DNA from: an uncultured Clostridium sp.
GTDB taxonomy: Bacteria; Bacillota; Clostridia; Clostridiales; Clostridiaceae
Reading direction: 5' to 3'
Assembly: GCF_947036855.1 (NCBI RefSeq)
Contig: NZ_CAMQRY010000009.1
Coordinates: 1-35,836 of the forward strand
Length of the DNA stretch: 35,836 nucleotides
Part shown: positions 14,371 through 20,059 of the stretch, piece by piece
Layout of the letters: each line of letters begins with the position of its first letter
Position numbering within the stretch: position 1 is the first letter of the stretch
The notes under the pieces: generated by a model
Database searches by the model: none
Told to the model about the DNA's origin: nothing
What the model saw: only the letters and a program-made list of their open reading frames with translations
Made by a program: the position numbers and the translations under genes

Positions 14371-14387
14371 AAAGTCAATTTAAGAAA

Positions 14388-14498
14388 CCTTTAATTTGAT
14401 CCAGAGAGGTCAATAAGGAAGTTGATTTTGAGATAAACACTATATTTGTCTTGATTTAGTGCGATACAAGTCTTCCTTTATACGGAGGGCTTTTTTTT
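14388..14498 (+). promoter_or_regulatory. PyrR-dependent transcription attenuator of the pyr operon
   Basis: Three parts of a classical PyrR attenuator are visible. The PyrR-binding loop has lower stem CCTT/AAGG (14388-14391, 14415-14418), upper stem TTGA/TCAA (14396-14399, 14410-14413) and the conserved CCAGAGAGG tip (14401-14409). The antiterminator pairs AAGGAAG (14415-14421) with CTTCCTT (14472-14478). The terminator is a 9-bp stem (14468-14476 / 14484-14492) followed by T's. From the B. subtilis and related systems, UMP-bound PyrR stabilises the loop, which frees the terminator and stops transcription when pyrimidines are plentiful. pyrR itself is not in the window. Confidence 0.9.
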
Positions 14499-14517
14499 GT
14501 AAAAAATTGTACTATAT

Positions 14518-14553
14518 CTTCTTTAAATTTAACACAGAGAGGTTAAAAAGGAG
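14518..14553 (+). promoter_or_regulatory. Second PyrR-loop-like element covering the pyrB ribosome binding site
   Basis: A second copy of the binding-loop pattern lies between the attenuator and pyrB. The lower stem is CTTCTTT (14518-14524) / AAAGGAG (14547-14553), with one G-U pair. There is an asymmetric 5' bulge AAAT. The upper stem is TTAAC/GTTAA (14529-14533, 14542-14546), and the tip carries the same CAGAGAGG (14535-14542) as the first loop. The 3' arm contains the pyrB SD AAGGAG (14548-14553). I infer that PyrR binding here would block translation of pyrB, as is known for mycobacterial PyrR leaders. No second terminator follows. Confidence 0.6.
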
Positions 14554-14561
14554 TGAATAAC

Positions 14562-15497
14562 ATGAGAGTAAATGACTTAAAACATAAACATCTTATAGAG
14601 CCTAAAGATTTTACGATAGAAGAAATTGATGAAATTTTTGAGCTTTCCAATCAAATAATAAAAAATCCAAGTGATTTTGCTGAATTATGTAAGGGTAAAA
14701 TACTTGCGACACTTTTCTATGAACCAAGTACGAGAACTAGATTGTCATTTGAGGCAGCTATGTTAAGACTTGGGGGACAAGTCCTAGGTTTTTCAGATGC
14801 AAAGGCAAGCTCTGTATCAAAGGGAGAATCTATAAGGGACACAATTCAAACAGTCGGCTGTTATGCAGATGTTATAGCAATGAGACATCCTCTTGAAGGA
14901 TCAGCAAAGCTTGCATCAATGTACTCACAGGCACCAGTTATAAATGCAGGTGATGGAGGGCATCAACATCCAACTCAAACCTTAACCGATTTATTTACAA
15001 TAAAAAAATATATGAAAAAATTAGATGGTAATGTTATAGCACTCTGTGGCGATTTAAAATATGGAAGAACAGTACATTCGCTTATTAAGGCTTTATCAAG
15101 ATATAAAAATAATAAGTTTATACTAATATCACCAAAGGAGCTTAGAGTTCCAGATTATATAAGAGAAGAAATACTTGAAAAAAATAATTTAGAGTATGAA
15201 GAAATTGAGAGCTTAGAAGAAGGCATCAAGGAATGTGATATTCTTTATATGACAAGAATACAAAAAGAAAGATTTGATGATGAAAAAGAGTATGATAGAT
15301 TAAAAGATAGTTATATCTTAGATTTAAATAAGATGAAACTTGCAAAAGAGGACATGATAGTATTACATCCACTACCAAGGGTTAATGAAATTAGTTATGA
15401 GGTAGATGCGGATAAAAGAGCTAAATATTTTAGTCAAGCTAAAATAGGGATGTATGTAAGAATGGCATTAATAGCAAAACTTTTGGGGGTAGCATAA
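14562..15497 (+). CDS. pyrB: Aspartate carbamoyltransferase catalytic chain
   Basis: PyrB condenses carbamoyl phosphate and aspartate to carbamoyl aspartate, the first committed step of UMP synthesis. Started at ATG 14562 it has 311 residues; this start is 8 bases after AAGGAG, while the in-frame GTG 14553 lies in the ribosome site. Seen are the carbamoyl phosphate loop [15 protein letters not shown], the [11 protein letters not shown] loop, and the [10 protein letters not shown] segment for aspartate binding. The length is that of a full catalytic chain, and its ATG-proximal residues [13 protein letters not shown] are usual. The stop TAA touches the ATG of the mini-PyrI gene, so the two are probably translationally coupled. 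Confidence 0.97.
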
Positions 15498-15641
15498 ATG
15501 GAATATAAAATTAAAAAATGTGAAAATCAAAAATGTGTAACTAATCATGAAAATTATGTTAAGCCAACATTTACTTTAGTTGATAAAGAAAAAGGGAAAT
15601 ATACTTGTGATTTTTGTAGCAATGAGATTAAATTTAAATAA
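15498..15641 (+). CDS. Mini PyrI: zinc-binding domain only of the aspartate transcarbamoylase regulatory chain
   Basis: A 47-codon gene begins at the base after the pyrB stop, 8 bases after a GGGGG ribosome site, and ends in TAA. The product matches the C-terminal zinc domain of PyrI. Cys8-x4-Cys13 and Cys37-x2-Cys40 have 23 residues between the pairs, the same spacing as Cys109/114/138/141 of E. coli PyrI, and the context is KKCENQKCVTNHE, PTFTLV and YTCDFCSNEIKF. The roughly 100-residue allosteric nucleotide-binding domain of ordinary PyrI (about 145-155 residues) is absent, and no remnant is visible because pyrB is intact and contiguous. In E. coli the zinc domain makes the contact with the catalytic trimer, and an isolated zinc-domain fragment is known to bind it. 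I infer a PyrB-binding modulator or stabiliser without CTP/ATP sensing. Confidence 0.8.
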   Translation: MEYKIKKCENQKCVTNHENYVKPTFTLVDKEKGKYTCDFCSNEIKFK

Positions 15642-15667: not shown

Positions 15668-16867
15668 ATGAATCTATTAATAAAAAATGTAAATGGAATT
15701 GATAAATCGCATAATTTTTATGGCGATATTTATATAGAGAATGGAATTATAAAAGAAATTGGGGAAAAGATAGAGAAAGATTGTGAAACTATAGATGCAC
15801 AGGGAAAGGTTGTAATGCCAGCATTTATTGATACACATGCACACTTTAGAGATCCAGGTTTTACACATAAGGAAGATATAGAAACAGGATCAAAGGCAGC
15901 CTCAAGGGGTGGATACACAGCAGTTACACTTATGGGGAATACAAATCCTATATCAAGCACTTTAGAAGTTATAAATATGGTTGAAAATAGAGCAAAAGAA
16001 GTAGGGCTTGTAGATGCATATCAGTGTTGTACTATAACAAAGAACTTAGATGGAAAAACTTTAAGTCATTTAGATAACTTTGAGGGAACTGATAGAATAA
16101 AAGTTATAACTGATGATGGAAGAGGCGTGTGTGATTCTAAGATAATGCATGATGCTATGCTTATAGCTAAAAGAAATAACTGGATTGTTATGTCACATGC
16201 AGAAGATCATGATTTATCAAAAATTAGTATGCGACTTGCAGAAAATATGATGACACATAGAGATTTAGAACTTGCAAAGTATACAGGAGCTAAACTTCAT
16301 ATGTCGCATGTTAGTACAATAGAAGCACTTGAAGAGATTAAAAGAGCTAAAGATGTAGCAGAGAATATTACATGTGAGGTAACACCACATCATATATTCT
16401 TTGATACAAGTATAAGCAATTATAGAGTAAATCCTCCAATAAGAGAAAAAGAGGATGTGAAAGCTGTAATAGATTCTATAAGACAAGGTGTTGTAGATTG
16501 TATAGGAACAGACCATGCACCGCATACAGATGAGGAAAAAGAAAAAGGTGCACCAGGACTTACAGGTATAGAACTTGCTTTCTCAGTAGTTTATACAAAA
16601 CTTGTTAAAGAAGAAGGAATGAATCTTAATAAGATCTCTGATCTAATGAGTGGTAGACCAGGGGAAATACTTAATATAAATAAAGGTAAAATTCAAATTG
16701 GATTTGATGGAGATTTAGTATTAATTGATACAGATAAAGAGTTTATTGTTGATAGACAAAAACTTGTATCAAAAAGTAAAAATACTCCTTTTGATGGAAT
16801 TAAGTTATATGGTGATATATTAATGACTATAAAAGCTGGAAAAGTTGTTTATAGCAGTAAATTTTAG
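15668..16867 (+). CDS. pyrC: Dihydroorotase (class I)
   Basis: PyrC cyclises carbamoyl aspartate to dihydroorotate. The start ATG 15668 is 9 bases after AGGAG; an in-frame ATG at 15659 directly abuts that site and is rejected, giving 399 residues. Amidohydrolase features are the metal-binding HAHFRDPGFTHKEDIETG segment, the GGYTAVTLMGNTNP substrate segment, metal-ligand histidines in MSHAEDH and LHMSHVST, and the catalytic Asp in CIGTDHAPHT. The length and HxHFRDPG pattern assign it to the class I (PyrC, Bacillus-type) enzymes. It lies 26 bases after the mini-PyrI gene. Confidence 0.96.
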   Translation: MNLLIKNVNGIDKSHNFYGDIYIENGIIKEIGEKIEKDCETIDAQGKVVMPAFIDTHAHFRDPGFTHKEDIETGSKAASRGGYTAVTLMGNTNPISSTLEVINMVENRAKEVGLVDAYQCCTITKNLDGKTLSHLDNFEGTDRIKVITDDGRGVCDSKIMHDAMLIAKRNNWIVMSHAEDHDLSKISMRLAENMMTHRDLELAKYTGAKLHMSHVSTIEALEEIKRAKDVAENITCEVTPHHIFFDTSISNYRVNPPIREKEDVKAVIDSIRQGVVDCIGTDHAPHTDEEKEKGAPGLTGIELAFSVVYTKLVKEEGMNLNKISDLMSGRPGEILNINKGKIQIGFDGDLVLIDTDKEFIVDRQKLVSKSKNTPFDGIKLYGDILMTIKAGKVVYSSKF

Positions 16868-16879
16868 GGGGATAAAGAA

Positions 16880-17752
16880 ATGATAATAGATAAATTATAT
16901 GAAAAAGTAGAACAAAATGGTGTTGTGTGTTTAGGACTTGATACAAGTGTAGATTATATACCAGAGTTTTTTAAAAATAAATTTGATAATAAAGTAGCAG
17001 ATTATTTATTTGCTTTTAATAAAGAAATAATAGATGAAACATTAGATGTTGTATCATGCTTTAAAGTACAAATAGCATATTATGAAGCGTTAGGTCTTGA
17101 AGGATTAATGGCTTATAAAAGAACTCTTGAATATTTAAGAGAAAAAGAAGCTATAAGTATAGCAGATATAAAAAGAGGAGATATAGCAGCAACTGCAACA
17201 ATGTATGCAAAAGCTCACTTTGAGGGAGATTTTGAAGCAGATTTTATAACACTTAGCCCATATATGGGGATGGATAGTATAGAGCCTTATATGCCATACT
17301 TTGAAAGTGGTAAAAAAGGAGCATTTGTACTTGTTAGAACTTCTAACAAAGGAGCACAAGATATAGAGTTTGTTAAAAGTGAAGAAAGTAAAACTATATA
17401 TGACATAGTAGGAGAAAAGATAACATCTCTTGGAGAAAGTTCTATAGGAACATCAGGATATAGTGCAATTGGTGGCGTTATAGGATGTACTCATAGTGAG
17501 AATGCAGAAAAAATAAGAGATGATTTTAAAAACATGTTTTTCTTAATTCCAGGTTATGGAGCACAAGGTGGAAAAGCTGAAGATGTAGCTAAGTATTTAA
17601 ATAATGGAAATGGTGGCGTTGTAAATTCATCAAGAAAGATTTTACTTGCATATAAAGAGCAAAATGATGAGTTAAACTTTGCAAAATGTTCTAGAAATGA
17701 AGCTATAAGAATGAGAGATGAAATAAAAAGTGCTGTAGAGAGATTAAAATAA
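16880..17752 (+). CDS. pyrF: Orotidine 5'-phosphate decarboxylase (type 2)
   Basis: PyrF decarboxylates OMP to UMP, the last step of the pathway. The 290 residues match the longer type 2 subfamily rather than the 230-240-residue type 1 enzymes. The opening VCLGLDTSVDYIP carries the first substrate Asp, FKVQIAYYEALG the next strand, and the catalytic Lys/Asp charge network lies in IADIKRGDIAATA. The GGVIGCTH and FLIPGYGAQGG segments form the phosphate-binding end of the barrel. The start follows a GGGGG site 12 bases after pyrC. Confidence 0.95.
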   Translation: MIIDKLYEKVEQNGVVCLGLDTSVDYIPEFFKNKFDNKVADYLFAFNKEIIDETLDVVSCFKVQIAYYEALGLEGLMAYKRTLEYLREKEAISIADIKRGDIAATATMYAKAHFEGDFEADFITLSPYMGMDSIEPYMPYFESGKKGAFVLVRTSNKGAQDIEFVKSEESKTIYDIVGEKITSLGESSIGTSGYSAIGGVIGCTHSENAEKIRDDFKNMFFLIPGYGAQGGKAEDVAKYLNNGNGGVVNSSRKILLAYKEQNDELNFAKCSRNEAIRMRDEIKSAVERLK

Positions 17753-17778: not shown

Positions 17779-18522
17779 ATGGCTATGGAGTTTGTAAATA
17801 CTATTGTTACTGAAAATAAAGAGATTTCAAATGGGATTTTTTCTATGAAGGTAAAGCATAAATCAGGTGTTAAAGCAGGACAGTTTTATATGCTTAAAGG
17901 AGAACTTGCTTTCCTTGGAAGACCAATAAGTGTATGTGAAGTTGAAGATGATATTATAAGATTTGTTTATGCCGTTGTTGGAATTGGAACAAAAGAACTT
18001 GAAAAGATGAAGGTGGGGAGTGAGCTTAAACTTATAGGACCACTTGGTAATGGATTTGATACACAGAAGGAATATGGAAGAGTTGCAATAGTTGGTGGAG
18101 GAATAGGTGTTGCACCTATGCTTGAACTTGCAAAACAGCTTAAACTAAATGGCATAGAAAAAGCAGATTTCTATGGTGGATTTAGAGAAGATGTATATCT
18201 TACTGATGAAATATCAAATTATGTTAATGAAACTTTTATAGCTACGAATAGTGGTAAACATGGAGAAAAAGGATTTGTAACAGATCCACTTCTTAGAAAT
18301 ATAAAGCAGTATGATACAGTTCTTTGTTGTGGACCAGAGGTTATGATGAAGAGGGTTGTAGAAATATGCAAAGAAAATAGTGTTAATGTATATATTTCTA
18401 TGGAGAAACATATGGCTTGTGGAGTTGGAGCATGTCTTGTATGTACATGTAAAACAAAGTCAGGAAATAAAAGAGTATGCAAAGATGGTCCAGTATTTAA
18501 TGGACTTGATGTTGAATTTTAG
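17779..18522 (+). CDS. pyrK: Dihydroorotate dehydrogenase electron-transfer subunit
   Basis: PyrK carries FAD and a [2Fe-2S] cluster and passes electrons from PyrD to NAD+. Started at ATG 17779, about 8 bases after AAAGGAG, it has 247 residues; an in-frame GTG at 17758 precedes the ribosome site. Order of domains: an FAD-binding barrel with [10 protein letters not shown], an NAD-binding domain with the glycine-rich [14 protein letters not shown], and a C-terminal iron-sulfur loop with [18 protein letters not shown] and a later Cys in RVCKDGPVF, giving four cysteine ligands. It sits directly before pyrD, confirming a class 1B enzyme. Confidence 0.95.
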
Positions 18523-18533
18523 GAGGGATATCT

Positions 18534-19433
18534 ATGTTAAAAGTTAATATAAATGGAGTAGATTTTAAAAATCCAGTAATAGCAGCATCAGGGACTTTTG
18601 GATTTGGAGCAGAGTATAATAATTTTTATGATGTAGGAATTCTTGGTGGGATTTCATCAAAAGGACTTACATTAAATGAAAAACAAGGTAATGATGGAAT
18701 AAGAATATATGAAACATCACAAGGGATAATGAATTCAGTAGGACTTCAAAACCCAGGAGTTGAAGGATTTATAAAGAATGAACTTCCAAAAATGAGAAAC
18801 CTTAATACTAAAATCATTGCTAACCTTGGTGGGGGAACTATTGAGGACTATGAAAAAGGTATAATTCTTTTAAATGATACAGATGTTGATATGATAGAAC
18901 TTAATATATCTTGTCCTAATGTTAAATCAGGTGGAATGGCATTTGGTATTAAATCAGATGTAGCAAAAGATGTAGTAGCAAAAATTAAAGCTCTAACAAA
19001 TAAACCATTAATGGTTAAATTATCACCAAATGCAGAAGATATAGTTGATATGGCTATAAAATGTCAAGAAGGTGGAGCAGATTCAATATCACTTGTTAAT
19101 ACATTAAAAGGTATGGCAATTGATATTAATAAAAGAGAAACTATATTTAATAATAAGTTCGCTGGACTTTCAGGTCCTGCTATAAAACCAATTGCACTTA
19201 GAATGGTTTATGAAGTTTCAAAAGCTGTAGACATACCAGTTATAGGACTTGGTGGAATTAGTACAGCAGAAGATGCAATAGAATTTATGATGGCTGGTGC
19301 AAGTGCAATACAAATAGGAACAATTAATTTTATAAATCCAACAGCAGGAGTAGAGATAATTCAAGGTATGGAAGATTTCTGCATAAGAGAGGGTATCAAA
19401 GATATCAATGAAATAGTTGGGATAATAAAATAA
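18534..19433 (+). CDS. pyrD: Dihydroorotate dehydrogenase, class 1B catalytic subunit
   Basis: PyrD oxidises dihydroorotate to orotate with FMN and works as a PyrD2-PyrK2 complex using NAD+. The 299-residue protein shows the N-terminal [15 protein letters not shown], the substrate segment [11 protein letters not shown], and the active-site Cys127 in [15 protein letters not shown], followed by VKLSPN and the FMN-binding VIGLGGIS and [11 protein letters not shown]. The pattern is that of class 1B, matching the adjacent pyrK. The start ATG is 5 bases after AGGAGGG. Confidence 0.96.
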
Positions 19434-19492: not shown

Positions 19493-20059
19493 ATGGTAAT
19501 AGAAATTTTAAAAGAATCAGGTGCATTATTAGAAGGTCACTTCTTACTATCTTCAGGAAAGCATTCAAATAAATACTGTCAATGTGCAAAGGTATTACAA
19601 TACCCTGATAAAGCAGAGAAAGTTTTAAGTATTGTTGTAGAAAAATTAAAAGAAGCAAAAGTTGAATGTGATTTAGTAGTAGGACCAGCAATGGGCGGAG
19701 TTGTTGTTGCTTATGAAATTGGAAGACAACTTGGAAAACCTGCTATATTTACAGAAAGAGAAAATGGAGAAATGACTTTAAGAAGAGGTTTCGAAATTAA
19801 AAAAGGTCAAAGAATTATAATAACAGAAGATGTTGTTACAACAGGAAAAAGTTTTAATGAAGCAGCAGCTGTAATAGAAGCTCATGGTGGAATAGTTGTA
19901 GCTGTTATATGTATGGTTGATAGAACTTCTACAAATGTAACTAAATATCCAATGTTTAGTTCAGTTAAGCTTGACATTGAAACATATGATGCAGATAATT
20001 GCCCATTATGTAAAGAAGGGACACCATATGTTAAACCAGGAAGTAGAAAAATTAAATAA
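19493..20059 (+). CDS. pyrE: Orotate phosphoribosyltransferase
   Basis: PyrE joins orotate to PRPP to make OMP, the substrate of PyrF. The 188-residue protein has the PRPP-binding signature [13 protein letters not shown] and, before it, the [20 protein letters not shown] segment and [16 protein letters not shown] short C-terminal [16 protein letters not shown] tail with two cysteines matches the clostridial form of the enzyme. The start ATG 19493 follows AGGAGGA. It is the last gene of the pyr operon and is closed by a strong terminator. With pyrB, pyrC, pyrD/K and pyrF the operon covers every step from carbamoyl phosphate to UMP; carAB is not here. Confidence 0.96.

Follow-up and report, generated by a model that had tools for sequence, protein, structure and literature searches.

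A stand-alone PyrI zinc domain directly behind pyrB

The window analysed here, the whole stretch of 35,836 nucleotides from an uncultured Clostridium species, contains a pyrimidine operon in the order pyrB, mini-pyrI, pyrC, pyrF, pyrK, pyrD and pyrE, preceded by PyrR-type RNA elements.

14384–14500, + strand: candidate PyrR-binding transcription attenuator upstream of pyrB (Rfam RF00515)
14518–14553, + strand: second PyrR-loop-like hairpin, with the pyrB Shine-Dalgarno sequence in its stem (weak RF00515 match, 25.9 bits)
14562–15497, + strand: pyrB, aspartate transcarbamoylase (ATCase) catalytic chain, 311 aa (Pfam PF02729 and PF00185; OTCace_N and OTCace)
15485–15489, + strand: GGGGG, candidate ribosome site of mini-pyrI, inside the 3' end of pyrB (direct reading)
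15498–15641, + strand: mini-pyrI, stand-alone PyrI zinc domain, 47 aa (PF02748, 44.1 bits, and AlphaFold2 model)
15668–16867, + strand: pyrC, dihydroorotase (NCBIfam TIGR00857, 334.9 bits)
16880–17752, + strand: pyrF, orotidine-5'-phosphate decarboxylase (NCBIfam TIGR02127, 233.4 bits)
17785–18522, + strand: pyrK, dihydroorotate dehydrogenase electron transfer subunit (NCBIfam NF000798, 346.6 bits)
18534–19433, + strand: pyrD, dihydroorotate dehydrogenase (NCBIfam NF005574, 415.9 bits)
19493–20059, + strand: pyrE, orotate phosphoribosyltransferase (NCBIfam TIGR01367, 237.4 bits)

The mini-pyrI ORF runs from an ATG at 15498 to a stop codon at 15639–15641, and its product is MEYKIKKCENQKCVTNHENYVKPTFTLVDKEKGKYTCDFCSNEIKFK. 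The ATG abuts the TAA of pyrB (15495–15497) and is preceded, 8 nt upstream, by the GGGGG. Four cysteines are arranged as C8-x4-C13, then 23 residues, then C37-x2-C40, which is the spacing of E. coli PyrI. The match to PF02748 (PyrI_C; E=1.8e-11, curated cut-off 23.4 bits) places the product in the zinc-domain family. The Pfam search of the 47 residues found no further family, and the PF01948 nucleotide-binding and dimerisation domain of a full PyrI is not among them. The NCBIfam equivalog for the regulatory subunit scored 40.9 bits against a cut-off of 171, with only profile positions 99–140 aligned. When the AlphaFold2 model of the 47-residue chain (mean pLDDT 78) was compared with the PDB using Foldseek, the 17 best matches were ATCase regulatory-chain entries, the top two of which (2yww_A and 1pg5_B) superpose with an r.m.s.d. 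of 0.8 Å over 38–39 columns. E-values from Foldseek were modest (best 0.048) for this very small query.

The product of pyrB is full length and is matched by ATCase catalytic chains in the PDB (best E=1.4e-96); an in-frame GTG lies upstream of its start, at 14553. The initial annotation had described a 47-residue PyrI zinc domain with the E. coli cysteine spacing, its ATG abutting the stop of a full-length pyrB with no sign of a frameshift, and a candidate ribosome site inside pyrB, all of which is borne out. Judged from its sequence and from the comparisons below, the ORF is a genuine gene under selection, namely a pyrI cut down to its zinc domain.

Absence of a full-length PyrI

The source genome is a draft of 2.64 Mb (95.5% complete, 217 contigs). 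A PF02748 profile search of this genome returned no second PyrI_C above the cut-off, the sole other match being G000:C58 at 15.8 bits, and PF01948 gave zero matches in any frame. PF01948 is also missing from 7/7 genomes of the genus, in which 6/7 species keep the zinc domain, and no PyrI N domain was found in the mini-carrying genomes of the family.

An assembly deletion or a frameshift in an ordinary pyrI might be suspected in a draft of so many contigs. The same layout of pyrB and mini-pyrI recurs, however, in independent assemblies of other species, including the complete chromosome of C. cadaveris; pyrB is intact right up to the abutting ATG; and PF01948 is absent from every frame of the genome. 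These observations refute an assembly fault, for which we see practically no remaining probability. The initial annotation had named such a deletion, a full-length pyrI elsewhere and poor conservation of the cysteines as findings that would overturn its reading. None of the three emerged, the four cysteines being conserved in relatives.

Distribution among Clostridiaceae and beyond

A survey of 207 genomes of the family found PyrI_C in 185 and PF01948 in 166. We re-examined 22 genomes, namely the candidates with PyrI_C and no N domain together with G006. Fifteen of the 22, from 15 species, have a stand-alone zinc domain of 46–71 residues directly behind pyrB. The pair that the initial annotation had suggested seeking in related genomes is thus found in seven genera (g1, g12, g15, g23, g29, g30 and g34), its carriers including Clostridium tarantellae DSM 3997, C. 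mediterraneense and C. cadaveris (complete genome). The start of mini-pyrI lies between −1 and +11 nt from the pyrB stop in the 15 pairs, and G-runs like GGGGG precede most of the other starts. The zinc domain is fused to the C terminus of PyrB in six Clostridiaceae (G016, G046, G101, G102, G113 and G137), and frames of fused length also occur in several other Clostridia families. Across the genomes compared, the picture goes beyond the initial annotation: the reduction is recurrent, fused versions exist and PyrB changes alongside.

Other arrangements were also seen. In G203 (L139), of the same genus as the source genome, pyrB is followed directly by pyrC, no zinc domain is found anywhere in the genome and PyrB position 114 is glutamate. 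PyrB without any zinc domain occurs in two further lineages, G112 and g9. The opposite damage is present in L055 (G006, about 1501–1605), where the PyrI nucleotide domain is intact and the zinc-domain match stops short, covering profile positions 1–34 of 48; an in-frame TAG in this region could stem from a sequencing error or mark a recent loss. Finally, two Alistipes/Rikenellaceae-named MAGs (L133 and L136; records with Bacteroidota names) encode fusions of PyrB with the zinc domain of PyrI alone, in which N111 and E119 are kept. The PyrB tree places these two PyrB sequences with those of the G016 and G046 fusions (support 100/98), which could reflect horizontal transfer or long-branch attraction.

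Selection on mini-pyrI

NG86 dN/dS between minis was 0.06–0.43 across the six computable pairs, values that are rough because dS was saturated in some of them; the pair L051/L048 gave no dS. In neutral simulations at the observed dS, 0/4000 runs retained an open frame, the observed identity and the four cysteines, and this held for each of five pairs. The four cysteines, N111 and E119 are 100% conserved in full, mini and fused forms, and position 116 is T or S throughout. The numbering is that of E. coli PyrI, whose cysteines lie at 109, 114, 138 and 141. By these measures the minis are under purifying selection. At equal PyrB distance (70–75% bin), the mean identity of the zinc domain is 0.48 for minis versus 0.64 for full PyrI; the mini thus evolves faster, which indicates that constraint is partly relaxed.

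This faster change could be read as that of a decaying, non-functional remnant of pyrI en route to complete loss, as could the loss of the zinc domain from G203 of the same genus and the G112 and g9 lineages, which have PyrB and no zinc domain. Against this, every computable pairwise dN/dS is below 0.5, no run survived in any of the five simulations, and the cysteines, N111 and E119 are unchanged across deeply split species. Moreover, the mini starts remain coupled to the pyrB stop and PyrB position 114, considered below, is still hydrophobic beside minis. Decay is largely refuted by the dN/dS values, the simulations and the invariant residues, and we regard it as improbable. G203, which has pyrB and has lost the domain, nevertheless indicates that the clip formed by the zinc domain is dispensable on evolutionary time scales.

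A probable docking site for the zinc domain on PyrB

Residues N111, N113, E142 and K143 of the regulatory chain belong to the c–r interface (PMC6981877), and in the R state N111 forms a bond with catalytic-chain Glu109 (PMC6056424). Within the Glu109 segment of PyrB, position 114 is V, I, L or A whether PyrI is full (103 enzymes), mini (15) or fused (9). Where the zinc domain has been lost genome-wide the residue is E (G203), T (G112) or R (three g9 species), a contrast drawn from 3–4 independent losses. Position 114 is R in L118 too, and no zinc domain was found downstream there. Three sequences classed as 'none' by the strict pattern were not counted as losses, since L077 and L106 have a full pyrI and the 3' end of pyrI in L055 is damaged. 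Because position 114 stays V/I/L/A beside minis, PyrB at this site still resembles a docking partner, and the zinc clip probably still holds the catalytic enzyme. The AlphaFold2 model of a fused PyrB–zinc enzyme has a pTM of 0.85.

Small zinc ribbons are versatile and mini-pyrI has its own start codon, so one might envisage a protein that acts apart from PyrB, perhaps storing zinc or serving as a regulator that shares the operon. In every genome examined, however, the zinc domain is encoded immediately after pyrB or forms part of the same protein as PyrB, the residue at the PyrB docking site tracks the presence of the domain, and interface residues beyond the zinc ligands are preserved. We consider an independent role very improbable and retain a role at the PyrB interface as the preferred reading.

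Inter-trimer columns of PyrB in mini lineages

We examined 135 PyrB columns that are ≥93% conserved in 40 full-PyrI Clostridiaceae. Those deviating in at least three of the seven mini lineages are 236 (six lineages), 235 (five), 108 (four), and 13, 237 and 165 (three each). In 300 draws of seven random held-out full-PyrI genera, the number of columns deviating in at least four lineages averaged 0.13 with a maximum of 2, compared with three observed. At a threshold of at least three lineages, the six observed columns equal the maximum of the random draws (mean 1.07). On the regulatory side, 75% of full chains have E at position 143, compared with 26% of minis. This position departs in g1, g29, g30 and g34, where PyrB 235 departs too, so the genus-wide losses appear to have decayed on both sides. 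Isolated losses within otherwise full-PyrI genera (g15 and g23) appear less decayed.

In E. coli the catalytic 230–245 loop, including D236, is reported to touch regulatory K143 of the opposite trimer when the enzyme is in the T state, with Y165 and E239 likewise described as inter-trimer contacts (Newton and Kantrowitz in 1990; reviews by Lipscomb and Kantrowitz). We take PyrB columns 165 and 235–237 to be these contact regions, with position 143 of the regulatory chain facing them. Columns 108 and 13 likewise drift in minis, and we know of no inter-trimer role for either. The importance of the Lys164–Glu239 pair in E. coli ATCase has been described (PMC6056424). Drift at the inter-trimer columns fits a trimer that carries clips and forms no dodecamer, and the 'structural clip without nucleotide feedback' of the initial annotation fits the co-variation in PyrB.

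An arrangement in which the mini still supports a higher oligomer or an effector response by other means, such as association with dihydroorotase as in class A, is unlikely. The next gene is indeed pyrC, and class A ATCases make dodecamers with dihydroorotase (PMC6022934), but PyrB columns 165 and 235–237 have drifted in the mini lineages and no sign of a PyrC contact was seen.

Origin of the reduced forms

The mini of G145 starts with MLKIDSIK, close to the MLNIDSIK of its full-length sisters, and continues directly with the linker LPEE. In G016 and G046 the fusions retain a remnant of the N domain (IGYVDPNTMVNIM versus LGLIDPNITI). Both features point to an ordinary pyrI that has undergone internal deletion. 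The mini state requires seven changes on a tree of 75 PyrB sequences (IQ-TREE, LG+C20), at least six of them forced by well-supported branches, with relatives that have a full pyrI interspersed. Fusions need five changes (at least three forced) and complete absence needs four, the 'none' group here taking in the damaged L055. The tree itself does not distinguish gain from loss; as the same N domain is unlikely to be regained, we infer that most of these changes are losses. All four states (full, mini, fused and absent) are held by g15, and g23 holds full and mini.

We lean towards a recurrent route by which class B ATCases, on losing the nucleotide domain, become trimeric 'clip' enzymes (c3r'3 or fused), their inter-trimer contacts decaying on both chains and their intra-trimer dock being held by selection. 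Such enzymes would constitute a further architectural class of ATCase, with at least six separate origins in this one family, the Clostridiaceae.

A proposed trimeric enzyme with zinc clips

For the enzyme encoded in the window, we think it likely that PyrI has been reduced to a zinc domain that serves the catalytic trimer; we infer its translation, binding and stoichiometry, the lack of feedback and any kinetic or stability effects. Mini-pyrI would be translated as a small protein and would bind every PyrB chain at the normal intra-trimer c1–r1 site, stabilising or tuning the trimer to give a c3r'3 enzyme. With the N-terminal domain missing there would be neither a CTP/ATP site nor an r2 dimer bridging two trimers, and so, on this proposal, no 2c3:3r2 dodecamer and no nucleotide control of the T and R states at the enzyme. 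PyrR acting on mRNA would then mainly set pyrimidine supply.

The closest working model is an isolated zinc-domain fragment of E. coli PyrI, which Markby, Zhou and Schachman reportedly found in 1991 to bind catalytic trimers. It too is a lone zinc domain acting on the catalytic trimer, but it is a laboratory product, whereas mini-pyrI occurs naturally and has become fixed in several lineages. Class B PyrI (PF01948 plus PF02748, for example in E. coli) shares with mini-PyrI the zinc-domain sequence, cysteine spacing, N111, E119, place behind pyrB and predicted fold; it differs in having an N-terminal nucleotide and dimerisation domain of about 95 residues, the whole of which mini-PyrI lacks. 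Class C ATCases (trimer only, for example in Bacillus subtilis) resemble the predicted mini enzyme in having no dodecamer and no allosteric nucleotide control. They have no regulatory chain, however, whereas the mini enzyme keeps a selected zinc-domain gene and a hydrophobic PyrB docking residue, which sets it outside class C. Thermotoga maritima, as cited in PMC6022934, has a fused PyrB–PyrI, a covalent pair like the fused relatives here; it is a fusion of the full regulatory chain, whereas the Clostridiaceae fusions contain the zinc domain only, with a short N-domain remnant in G016 and G046.

In the searchable literature, which misses most subscription and older enzymology papers, we found no account of a PyrI that naturally consists of the zinc domain only; this argues weakly for novelty. 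As an allosteric, feedback-controlled enzyme ATCase is a textbook case, and to our knowledge the role of its zinc domain beyond relaying nucleotide signals has been studied only with artificial fragments. Evolution appears to have repeated that dissection at least six times, leaving closely related species with a full PyrI, the zinc domain alone, a fusion or no zinc domain, sometimes within one genus. With such relatives one can test directly what the zinc domain contributes by itself, in what sequence the parts of an allosteric assembly are lost, and how the residues responsible for intra-trimer docking differ from those of the inter-trimer T state.

Possible RNA-level control through PyrR

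The candidate attenuator upstream of pyrB matches RF00515 over its full length (51.0 bits, just short of the gathering score of 54; E=2.7e-06 with 371 bases searched) and includes a terminator-like hairpin (14468–14492) followed by a U run. A PyrR gene is present in the genome (248.9 bits, cut-off 138). With PyrR encoded, a candidate attenuator placed before pyrB and a second PyrR-like hairpin behind that, pyrimidine regulation may rest on RNA-level control via PyrR, in line with the suggestion of the initial annotation.

The second hairpin, downstream of the attenuator, folds so as to pair the AAGGAG of the pyrB ribosome site, with a fold energy no better than that of shuffles; its CACAGAGAGG loop is kept in relatives of the genus (L060, L061, L051, L059 and L139). 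Its position suggests that PyrR may act on both transcription and the initiation of pyrB translation. No separate attenuator was seen within the 200 bases inspected in L140 (G112); there the PyrR-loop-like element that precedes pyrB directly overlaps its ribosome site (CCTTTAATTTAATCCAGAGAGGTTAATAAGGAGG).
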